A stretch of 64,000 nt of DNA from Mycobacteroides abscessus ATCC 19977 (lineage in GTDB: Bacteria; Actinomycetota; Actinomycetes; Mycobacteriales; Mycobacteriaceae). The position numbers and the translations under genes are program-made. The stretch lies in contig NC_010397.1 in NCBI RefSeq assembly GCF_000069185.1, positions 1,488,001-1,552,000 on the forward strand. The letters run 5' to 3'. Below the pieces are notes generated by a model. It worked only from the letters and a program-made list of their open reading frames with translations, had not been told where the DNA came from and made no database searches. Positions 12,576-18,116 of this stretch are shown one piece after another (within the stretch, counting starts at the first letter, position 1; the number at the start of each line of letters is the position of its first letter).

Positions 12576-14036
12576 ATGAATGATCTGACAGTCGAAGAGC
12601 TGTTCGCGCACAACGATGACGTGCAGAAATCCCGTGCGGTCCGCCTGTTGGCCGCCAAGAATCTGGCCCCCTACATCACGCTCATGGAACGCCACCTGGA
12701 CCGCAGCGCCAAAGTCTCCGAACCTCAGCTGGTGGCCAAGCTGGACCGGGACCTGAGCGCCGTCGGGCTGGGAGAACAGTCCGGGCTGGCCCTCATCAAG
12801 AGCTGGGCGAGCGACGGGTGGCTGCACCGAGCGTCGGACGGCACCGGCCCCGATGCCGAGAACGTCTGCTCGCTGACCGAGGACGCGCGCAGCGCGCTGG
12901 CCTTTGTGCGCCGCCTGCGCCGTGCTGACACGGTGGCCACGGGCGGGTCCATTGCCGGTATCGCGGCAGGCCTCAAACGGGTGGCCACCCAGCTGGACGG
13001 CGACCCGTCACGCCTGCGCGCCGACATCGAAGCCCAGATCGCAGAACTGCAGACCCAGCTGCATGCCATCGACGACGGATATCGTCCGGAACCGGATATC
13101 GTCGATCTTGAGGACGAGACCCGGGCCATCGCATACCAGATGGAACAAGTGATCACCGACATCGTCCGCTACGGCAGCATGCAGAACGAGATCACCGCCG
13201 GACTCATCGACGCCGCCGAGGACTCCGACTCCGGCTTCCGCGACCGCGCCCGCAGAATGTTCGCGGACTACGACGCCCTCTTCGATTCCCGCGAGCGTGC
13301 CTCTTATTCGGCCTTCACGCGGACCATCCAAGATCCGGATCAGCGAGCCGCGCTACGGAGTGATATTGCCTGTGTCGCAGAGGGTTTGCCTGATCTCGAC
13401 CCCGGGCTGCGTGAGGTCATGAGGAACTTCTTCAAGCTCGTGTCTCAGCAGATCGCGGAGGTCTCCCGCATCGAACAGCGCTGCGCACAGCGCATCCGGC
13501 GGTTCTTCGCCGCCGGCACCACGGAGCAGGCTCGTGGCCGTGCGCGACAGCTCAATGACGCGCTGGCGGCCGGGCACGCTCTACTCAAGATGTCGACGGC
13601 GGACTCTCCGATCGACGCCGAGCTACCGATCGGGCGTTCCGCCGCAGCGGCGATCGGCGCGCTGTCTTTCACCATCAAGGACACCGCGCCGCCGGTGCTC
13701 GCACAGGACGCCCCGTCGGGGCCGCTGGATTTGAGCGGGTTCTCGGCGCTGGCCACCCAGGTGGATATGGCCGCATTGGCCGATACGGTCAACAGTGCTA
13801 TTGCCAGTGGCCCAGTTTCCTTGCCCGACATGATCTCTCATGTCGAGGCCCCCTACCTAGGTGATGTGATCGTGTTGTGGTCGCTGGCCCTCAAGCAGGA
13901 CAACACTGCCGACCGCGAATCGGTAAAGGTGAAGTTCCGGTCCCTCGACGGACAGGACCGGGTGATGGAGGTACCTCAGTTGATGTTCCGTGAACCGGTG
14001 CTGGCCACCCTCGAAGAGGAGGGATCGACACTGTGA
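12576..14036 (+). CDS. jetA: JetA/MksF-like subunit (DUF3375) of an SMC complex
   Basis: A 486-residue protein of the DUF3375 type, the kleisin-like subunit of Wadjet (JetA), MksF and mycobacterial EptA systems. The N-terminus ([21 protein letters not shown]) is the winged-helix entry typical of DUF3375. The middle (about residues 110-330) is helical with many charged residues, as expected of a kleisin-like linker. A GATGGAGG ribosome-binding site precedes ATG 12576 by 5 bp. It overlaps jetB by 4 bp. The family call rests on sequence pattern and the following two genes. Confidence 0.85.
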
Positions 14037-14782
14037 CGACACAGGCTTCAGGGACCGCCCTGGGGAACATCAATTTTGACGACCTGCCGGGTGTCGAACC
14101 CGATGCCTCGGCACCGCGAATGGCCAAGGGGCCGCGATTCGACGGCGACACCAGTGAGCTTCCGGACAAGGCCTGCTGGGCGCTGCAGAACTTGGTGGCC
14201 CGGCGCTACCTGAGTAAGGACGGTCAGCCCGAACTGTGGGCGTCGATGATCGAGCATCGCAAGGTGCTGGCCGCGCGCCTGTCCGAATTGGACCTGCGGC
14301 TGCGGGTGTTCGACGATCTCGAGGTTGCCTACGCCGAACCAGCTCCGTTGGAGAACCCCAGCGTGTACGGCGCCAGGGTGTTGCGCCGGGAACCGTTGGG
14401 CACCTACGCGTCGATCGTGGCACTGCACCTGGCCAAGATCGCCAGGACCGCGCACGACGAACATGTATTGGTCAGCCGCGACGATATTCACGAACTTTTC
14501 GCCAACGTCTCCCACGACATCGACCGCGACGAGGCGATGCTGCGTGATCGCGTTGACGAGGCGATCAAGCGGCTGTCCAAGGCTGAGATTCTGCAGCGCA
14601 CCCGCGATGACGAGCACAGCTACACCATCAGCCCAGTCATCAACGCGCTGATGTCGGCGCAGATGATCGAGGCACTGCAGCGTCAGTACGAGCAGTTGCA
14701 GCGCGGCGGTGCCGCCCCCGAAGACGCCGACGGCGCAGACCCCACCGACGAAGAAGATGGCGAGACCGATGACGACGAGTGA
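14033..14782 (+). CDS. jetB: JetB/MksE-like subunit (DUF4194) of an SMC complex
   Basis: A 249-residue protein with paired winged-helix regions characteristic of DUF4194/MksE/JetB, which bridges the kleisin and the DNA. Helical segments include [17 protein letters not shown] (about 46-62) and [20 protein letters not shown] (about 130-149); the C-terminal ~25 residues are very acidic ([11 protein letters not shown] end). GTG at 14033 sits in the jetA stop (GTGA). Its 3' end overlaps jetC by 14 bp, the spacing of a tightly coupled operon. Confidence 0.85.
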
Positions 14783-17700: not shown

Positions 17701-18116
17701 AGGAGCGCGATGCCAGGACCGGCGAACCGATCCGTACCTACAGCAACGCGGGTGCGAATTCCGGTGGAGAACAAGAGAAGTTGATGGCGTTCTGCCTCGC
17801 CGGCGCGCTGAGCTTCAACCTGGCTAACCCGGAGACGGGGGACAACCGGCCGGTCTTCGCGCAGCTTATGCTCGACGAGGCGTTCTCGAAATCGGATCCG
17901 CAGTTCGCCCAGCAGGCGCTGTCCGCGTTCCGTAAGTTCGGATTCCAGCTGGTGATCGTGGCCACCGTGCAGAACACCACCACCATCCAGCCCTATATCG
18001 ACAGCGTGGTGATGGTGTCCAAGCCGGACGGCCCGGGGGTGCGTCCGGTTGCTTCGACGCGCACTGTGCCGATCGGTGAGCTCGGTGACGTACGCAAGGC
18101 CGTGAGCGCCCGCTAG
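14769..18116 (+). CDS. jetC: JetC/MksB/EptC-like SMC ATPase
   Basis: An SMC/MukB-type ATPase of 1115 residues that would drive DNA-loop extrusion with JetA and JetB. Walker A is GSSGSGKSS (41-49), the ABC signature is SGGEQE (998-1003), and Walker B is QLMLDEAF with Asp1036 and Glu1037. Between them are two long coiled coils (about 250-430 and 620-870) and a hinge-like region (about 480-560). ATG at 14769 is chosen over upstream in-frame starts because [17 protein letters not shown] gives the family N-terminus. The stop overlaps the stop of a convergent crotonase gene in a shared CTAG, leaving no space for jetD. Confidence 0.92.

Follow-up and report, generated by a model that had tools for sequence, protein, structure and literature searches.

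Type I Wadjet systems, known as JetABCD in E. coli GF4-3 and P. aeruginosa PA14, MksBEFG in C. glutamicum and EptABCD in M. smegmatis, encode in the order A-B-C a DUF3375 protein, a DUF4194 protein and an SMC-type ATPase, together with JetD. Wadjet JetABC is described as extruding plasmid DNA, with JetD activated once extrusion is complete (PMC12647877; similarly PMC12287153), and Wadjet as sparing only circles larger than ~100 kb and linear DNA (PMC10586767). MksBEF of the P. aeruginosa PAO1 type is a three-subunit SMC-kleisin-KITE complex without a nuclease that exists beside canonical SMC, and MukBEF has the same subunit layout; the origin of MksBEF, and perhaps of MukBEF, has been sought in a system for plasmid defence from which the nuclease disappeared (PMC10586767). 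Here we analysed a 64,000-nt stretch of Mycobacteroides abscessus ATCC 19977 (NC_010397.1, positions 1,488,001 to 1,552,000, forward strand; hereafter the window), which carries a jetABC operon of this kind and in which no jetD was found. We lean, by a modest degree, towards reading it as a type I Wadjet motor that lost JetD before the sampled Mycobacteroides diverged and that may now serve as an accessory, condensin-like organiser beside SMC. The operon and its diagnostic features, in window coordinates, are the following.

12576..14036, plus strand: jetA (DUF3375), kleisin-type subunit, 486 aa; PF11855 315.6 bits, PADLOC JetA1 812 bits
14033..14782, plus strand: jetB (DUF4194), KITE-type subunit, GTG start; PF13835 117.6 bits, PADLOC JetB1 350 bits
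14769..18116, plus strand: jetC, SMC-type ATPase, 1115 aa, ATG start; PADLOC JetC1 1975.6 bits
14889..14912, plus strand: jetC Walker A, GSSGSGKS, residues 41-48 (alignment A1)
17760..17774, plus strand: jetC ABC signature, SGGEQ, residues 998-1002, invariant in alignment A1
17865..17879, plus strand: jetC Walker B, LMLDE, residues 1033-1037, invariant in alignment A1
18113..18116, no strand: CTAG common to the stop codons of jetC (plus strand; TAG at 18114-18116) and the convergent echA (minus strand)

The open reading frames (ORFs) bear out the initial annotation of this DNA, which had described DUF3375, DUF4194 and SMC-type ATPase genes overlapping by 4 and 14 bp: the jetB GTG lies inside the 4-bp overlap with jetA, and jetB and jetC share 14 bp. 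A second possible jetC start, a GTG at 14709, lies upstream in frame and is also open. The ATPase motifs, all said to be kept, are indeed conserved in the 15-row alignment A1, where Walker A residues 41, 43, 44, 46, 47 and 48 are invariant and residue 45 nearly so, in addition to the signature and Walker B listed above. JetC motifs are likewise intact in 11 of 11 Mycobacteroides loci; in the wider motif check, Walker A was missed within the first 200 residues in six rows, four with over-long ORF starts (L142, L058, L215, L208) and two broken (L099, L117).

Type I JetA, JetB and JetC are all present, adjacent and in the order A-B-C according to PADLOC, Pfam, PDB and fold matches, in keeping with the Wadjet gene order first proposed. 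JetC carries AAA_29 and SbcC_Walker_B Pfam matches, and its best PDB counterparts are the JetC proteins of P. aeruginosa PA14 and E. coli (8dk2, E 3.6e-57, and 8as8, E 8.4e-53); at E 0.01 it matched solved JetC only, and MukB was not among the matches. Both the PADLOC models and the PDB matches therefore place JetC with its type I Wadjet counterparts, and not outside the Wadjet and Mks families, as it would if the initial annotation were wrong. Sequence profiles linked JetA and JetB only weakly to PDB Jet chains (E 5e-4 and 0.3). Their AlphaFold2 models, of modest confidence (mean predicted local distance difference test score, pLDDT, 69.8 with a predicted template modelling score of 0.34 for JetA; mean pLDDT 69.3 for JetB), best matched Jet chains: JetA hit 8as8_E, 9qxt_E and 8q72_E (E 7.8e-10 to 9.7e-9, with low whole-chain template modelling scores of 0.25-0.28), and JetB hit 8as8_C (E 1.6e-9), followed by MukE (E 2e-6). 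The models thus resemble Jet chains more closely than MukBEF. These sequence and model matches identify kleisin, KITE and SMC subunits, all present, as being of the type I Wadjet kind. The MksE Pfam model stays below its cut-off (23.4 bits; cut-off 27), unlike the clear DUF4194 match, in a comparison whose trees were built without an MksB reference. JetC scores 34.6 bits with the SMC_prok_B equivalog, short of its cut-off of 567.35, and the one canonical SMC of the genome lies elsewhere (G000:C2:3282050-3285604, 1029 bits). DUF3375 has a single match in the whole genome.

What sets this operon apart from type I Wadjet is that JetD was found neither in the operon nor elsewhere in the genome. 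The initial annotation had noted that jetC and a convergent crotonase gene finish on a common CTAG, leaving no jetD at the locus, and had called for a genome-wide search; the stops overlap at 18113-18116, and a PF09983 (JetD) search of the genome returned 0 matches, with C. glutamicum as a positive control. An 8-row full-length JetD profile reached at best 13.5 bits (E 0.048), as against 244 and 556 bits in two JetD-bearing genomes. JetD remnants were sought by tblastn of 12 JetD proteins against 163 JetD-less loci, with nothing at E 0.01. By PF09983, the 8-row profile and the overlapping jetC/echA stops, the operon is without the JetD toprim nuclease that goes with it in Wadjet. The window belongs to a contig of 5,067,172 bases, and the second contig of the assembly is a plasmid of 23,319 bp that carries mercury genes; over its first 12 kb it shows 100% identity with 23,319-base M. 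abscessus plasmid records and 99.9% with an M. marinum plasmid; a resident 23 kb plasmid fits a lack of restriction, a point that is suggestive only.

We then compared relatives, using a genus sample of 148 genomes and a same-family sample of 401. JetC was matched in 80 of the 148, with a copy at 52% identity or more in 67. By JetC identity, these 67 divide into five at 97-100%, one at 60% (G086, JetD-bearing), nine near 58%, 49 at 54-57% and three partial or broken; the other 13 matches are two short, stop-bearing remnants (G028 and G114, left out of the count of 67) and 11 genomes with a distant JetC only. All five Mycobacteroides recognised in this sample have JetABC at the present site with no JetD beside it. 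Of the 67, only G086 has JetD beside this JetC, and 56 have no JetD in the genome at all. PF09983 was matched in 22 of the 148 genomes, namely 11 among the 67 and the 11 with a distant JetC only, and in the latter the distant JetC (24-34% identity, fragments included) adjoins its JetD. In the same-family sample, JetC was matched in 172 of 401 genomes; 121 of the 155 newly matched were tested for JetD, which occurred in 2 of 38 genomes with JetC at 31-36% (both directly beside it) and in 32 of 33 whose best JetC was at 26-29%. These two kinds separate well.

Several loci depart from the usual arrangement. The JetD of ordinary Wadjet is split between two frames in genomes G137 and G123 (L121 5803-6947; L022, L023), and jetC copies of the JetD-less family are interrupted or fragmentary in other mycobacteria (L099, L117, L119 and the G028 and G114 remnants). 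Furthermore, jetA stands ~1.7-2.9 kb from jetB in L080, L088, L107 and L112, jetB is away from jetC in L112 and L081, and jetA was not found at the L081 locus.

Among named loci, for which the best 80 of 161 stretches were used, M. franklinii and M. chelonae are among those whose JetC is 95-98% identical, and JetD lies downstream in four loci, the very four that come closest once Mycobacteroides itself is set aside:

Mycolicibacterium sp. 018/SC-01/001: JetC 65% identical
M. rhizamassiliense: JetC 61% identical
Mycolicibacter senuensis: JetC 59% identical
M. longobardus: JetC 59% identical

A comparison of related species for an intact jetD, suggested at the outset, therefore finds one directly after jetC in the closest of those outside Mycobacteroides. 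The JetD frame runs from the jetC end in L140, L141, L142 and L143, that is, from about the point at which the CTAG stands in M. abscessus. Three of these nearest-relative JetDs were aligned and show the conserved toprim-type acidic residues and the EQE motif, which we take to be catalytic.

Phylogenies were built from rows of our own choosing, 78 by a quick method that gave long-branch warnings and 28 by a careful one; AD denotes the nearest JetD-bearing rows, AD and TD being two JetD-bearing branches, and the partial or broken L118-L120 enter no group count. In the 78-row JetC tree the groups are mostly coherent and JetD changes state at least three times; the 28-row tree unites Mycobacteroides with three JetD-bearing relatives in one clade (100/100). 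A tree forced to keep every JetD-less row of this branch together was rejected (approximately unbiased test, p 0.020, rows named after a tree had been seen). Support for groups B58, Gordonia and B55 as one clade is 77/33, by which a single common loss among them is neither shown nor rejected. An unrooted JetD tree of 24 rows parts AD and TD from 19 ordinary JetDs with support of 99/99, a split that recurs at 100/100 when JetC is used for these rows. This agreement suggests that JetD and JetC were inherited together from the common ancestor of AD and TD onwards, which in turn makes losses, at least three of them, more likely than gains.

The trees alone give no direction, and the same three changes of state would also fit a history in which the ancestral complex was nuclease-free and the JetD-bearing relatives gained JetD separately, an account that bears on history and not on present function. 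We consider it quite unlikely: AD and TD JetDs stand together against the 19 ordinary ones, as their JetCs do, although the JetD tree is unrooted; moreover, JetD occupies its usual place after jetC in both branches, and two gains would need one source lineage. Our best reading of these sequences is accordingly that JetD was lost three times or more while JetABC stayed. The lack of JetD beside this operon is lineage-wide in Mycobacteroides, and, as part of the account favoured above and with the same modest confidence, JetD appears to have been lost before the sampled species diverged.

We next estimated the ratio of nonsynonymous to synonymous substitution rates (dN/dS, Nei-Gojobori) for window genes against ten Mycobacteroides loci, two of which (L057 and L138) are from one genome. 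JetC gave dN/dS of 0.012-0.031 at dS 0.65-0.84, JetA 0.028-0.046 and JetB 0.028-0.048; the neighbouring fadD, echA and molybdopterin oxidoreductase genes gave 0.10-0.15, 0.06-0.11 and 0.030-0.045, respectively. In four genome pairs JetC was 2.4 to 3.3 times tighter than canonical SMC, as listed here.

G050: SMC 0.040, JetC 0.012
G147: SMC 0.064, JetC 0.025
G088: SMC 0.043, JetC 0.018
G092: SMC 0.044, JetC 0.018

JetC is under very strong purifying selection. This result contradicts the idea that the operon is the decaying remnant of a Wadjet system, which the missing JetD and the broken or fragmentary copies in some genomes might suggest; given such low JetC ratios and motifs intact throughout the Mycobacteroides loci, we regard decay as highly improbable.

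A further difference from type I Wadjet is that dN/dS is lower in JetD-less JetC pairs than in the small number of JetD-bearing pairs available for measurement. For disjoint pairs at dS 0.15-0.6, median dN/dS was 0.052 (n 54) where JetD is lacking and 0.128 (n 4) where it is present (one-sided p 0.009), and extending dS to 0.7 gave 0.053 (n 61) and 0.135 (n 8; p 0.0002); these pairs are not phylogenetically independent, the JetD-bearing ones come mostly from other clades, and AD gave no usable pair. The rows comprised 10 of 11 Mycobacteroides, 14 of 18 B58, 82 of 105 B55, 17 Gordonia-type, 17 T, 2 TD, 3 AD and 36 ordinary Wadjet, leaving out apparent repeats of one genome, the broken L099 and L117, the split-frame L309 and the long-branch L125 and L133. 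We relied on dS below 0.6 or 0.7, as pairs at high dS look saturated (T and Gordonia rows, for example; whole-group medians up to 0.26).

With JetD seemingly lost several times while the machine was kept, the machine is suggested to do another job with DNA. By analogy with studied Wadjet complexes, JetABC would load on DNA and extrude loops by ATP hydrolysis; lacking JetD, extrusion would end without a cut, the complex extruding or holding DNA, and JetABC could then serve DNA organisation beside canonical SMC, in parallel to MksBEF and reached separately. The initial annotation had left the choice between a nuclease-free condensin and a complex with a distant or unrelated effector; the evidence leans to the former, as selection on JetC exceeds that on SMC in four genome pairs and, of the neighbour families examined, none that recurs across lineages is effector-like; a linked replacement for JetD was not found among them. 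JetABC is, on its sequence, most likely a nuclease-free loop-extruding complex, functionally like MksBEF and separately derived from type I Wadjet. A stronger proposal, that nuclease loss is a recurrent step in evolution, with JetD lost three times or more inside a single actinobacterial branch of type I Wadjet and JetABC kept each time, and that the Mycobacteroides motor became fixed as a chromosome-level organiser held tighter than SMC, is one we put forward tentatively, as somewhat less probable than its negation.

The chromosomal neighbourhood supports fixation in one lineage. All 55 pairs of the 11 Mycobacteroides loci share the site, defined by two flanking families, and the five sample genomes with echA at 87% identity or more are the same five with JetABC at 97-100%. 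B58 loci also occupy mostly one site (117 of 153 pairs). As the 11 Mycobacteroides loci hold one site and the B55 and Gordonia-type groups are scattered, the operon looks fixed in Mycobacteroides and mobile elsewhere.

That mobility is the first of several points that weigh against a chromosomal role. Only 201 of 5460 locus pairs share two flanking families in B55, the 54-57% Mycolicibacterium clade, a figure inflated by genomes present twice in the set, and only 2 of 66 do so in the Gordonia-type group, which includes one row of another genus; such scatter in B55 and Gordonia is the pattern of a mobile defence gene and not of a core condensin. The operon is missing from 81 of the 148 genus genomes and broken in some (G045, G031, G019), and in other clades the dN/dS of JetD-less JetC pairs goes up to 0.24. 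Residues that might have disappeared in step with JetD were also sought, without a clear pattern: 26, 6 and 100 columns are conserved in JetD-bearing JetA, JetB and JetC, of which 6, 0 and 8 changed in at least two JetD-less groups, and one in JetA and one in JetC changed in all three. M. smegmatis is reported to survive, with condensed nucleoids, the deletion of three SMC genes, of which MSMEG_0370 is presumably one (PMC6135046), and C. glutamicum MksB, which has MksG, showed no effect on chromosome organisation (PMC10123090).

The same patchy, scattered distribution in Mycolicibacterium and Gordonia would suit a complex that still acts against plasmids or phages without cutting, by extruding small circles fully, staying on them and blocking their replication, segregation or expression. 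M. smegmatis EptC is indeed described as interfering with plasmid segregation by manipulating plasmid topology (PMC6135046); EptC, however, belongs to a system described with four subunits (PMC10586767, PMC10123090). We judge such silencing rather unlikely, since the M. abscessus genome keeps its 23 kb plasmid and JetC is held tighter than SMC, as opposed to the medians of 0.128-0.135 in JetD-bearing JetC pairs, for which there is no SMC comparison.

Alternatively, the cutting could be done by a nuclease that is encoded elsewhere or has escaped recognition; in some genomes a second, complete Wadjet might lend its JetD. JetD does occur somewhere in 11 of the 67 genus genomes with this JetC; yet eight of these JetDs lie beside their own distant JetC (25-30%), one beside this JetC (G086) and two, in G049 and G121, without a JetC found nearby, and the other 56 genomes have none. 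The JetD-like frames of these last two genomes are L128 8764-9423 and L129 12986-13357, where JetABC was not detected nearby. G088, a Mycobacteroides, combines the JetD-less operon with a distant, complete JetABCD (L125 3807-10526; JetC 25-28% identical). Among the 30 largest flanking families, only two span lineages, and neither is effector-like: a GDT1-type antiporter (5 T, 8 B55) and an isocitrate dehydrogenase (6 B55, 1 Gordonia-type). On the JetD searches and these flanking families, a partner of this sort seems unlikely to us, and the nuclease-free complex remains the preferred reading.

One candidate for a substitute effector was rejected. In 11 loci a PF03372 (EEP, exonuclease/phosphatase) hydrolase gene, the one nuclease-like gene adjoining jetC, lies on the same strand and starts between -70 and +11 bp relative to the stop of jetC:

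L111, 11339-12121, same strand as jetC: EEP hydrolase (PF03372)
L114, L116, L161, L182, L186, L192, L197, L200, L210 and L213, same strand as jetC: EEP hydrolase (PF03372)

The family is present in 146 of the 148 genomes, including at least 66 of the 68 without a JetC match, which marks it as a flanking housekeeping gene and not an effector; being genus-wide, the EEP gene seems to be one in front of which jetABC has landed.

Both nuclease-free MksBEF and MSMEG_0370 of M. smegmatis have been published, and by analogy the present JetABC would work like MksBEF. The nearest relatives of the M. abscessus operon are JetD-bearing mycobacterial systems, for which reason its loss of JetD looks separate from MksBEF, in trees that do not include PAO1 MksB. 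MSMEG_0370 probably belongs to the same JetD-less family, and the M. smegmatis locus was not among the best 80 of the 161 named loci. A 2020 Biochimie study reportedly calls MSMEG_0370 MksB, an alternate condensin. M. smegmatis has two MukB-like proteins, MSMEG_0370 and EptC (PMC6135046), and MSMEG_0368 appears in a proteomic list (PMC10433963). In the literature surveyed, which mostly excluded subscription papers, neither a type I JetABC without JetD in Mycobacteroides nor the repeated loss of JetD was described. Loss of JetD appears here to be repeated and comparatively recent, JetD-bearing and JetD-less JetC relatives standing at 59-65% identity, so that the same motor is comparable with and without its cutter, a step hard to observe in MksBEF; if the proposal is true, the conversion of a defence system to housekeeping could be watched between close relatives. 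PADLOC type I models give this JetABC very high scores, and surveys of mycobacteria could hence take JetD-less operons for plasmid-defence systems.

The remaining features of the locus lie at or outside its borders:

12565..12569, plus strand: GGAGG, likely jetA ribosome-binding site, 6 bases 5' of the ATG
10630..12426, plus strand: fatty acyl-AMP ligase gene, flanking and outside the system; NF009124 1066.8 bits
18113..18898, minus strand: echA/crotonase gene, convergent, flanking and outside the system; PF00378

Both flanking genes belong to neighbour families found in 11 of 11 Mycobacteroides loci, and 149 bp separate the acyl-AMP ligase gene from jetA. A tRNA-Leu gene lies at window positions 10379-10463, just 5' of the acyl-AMP ligase gene that precedes jetA.

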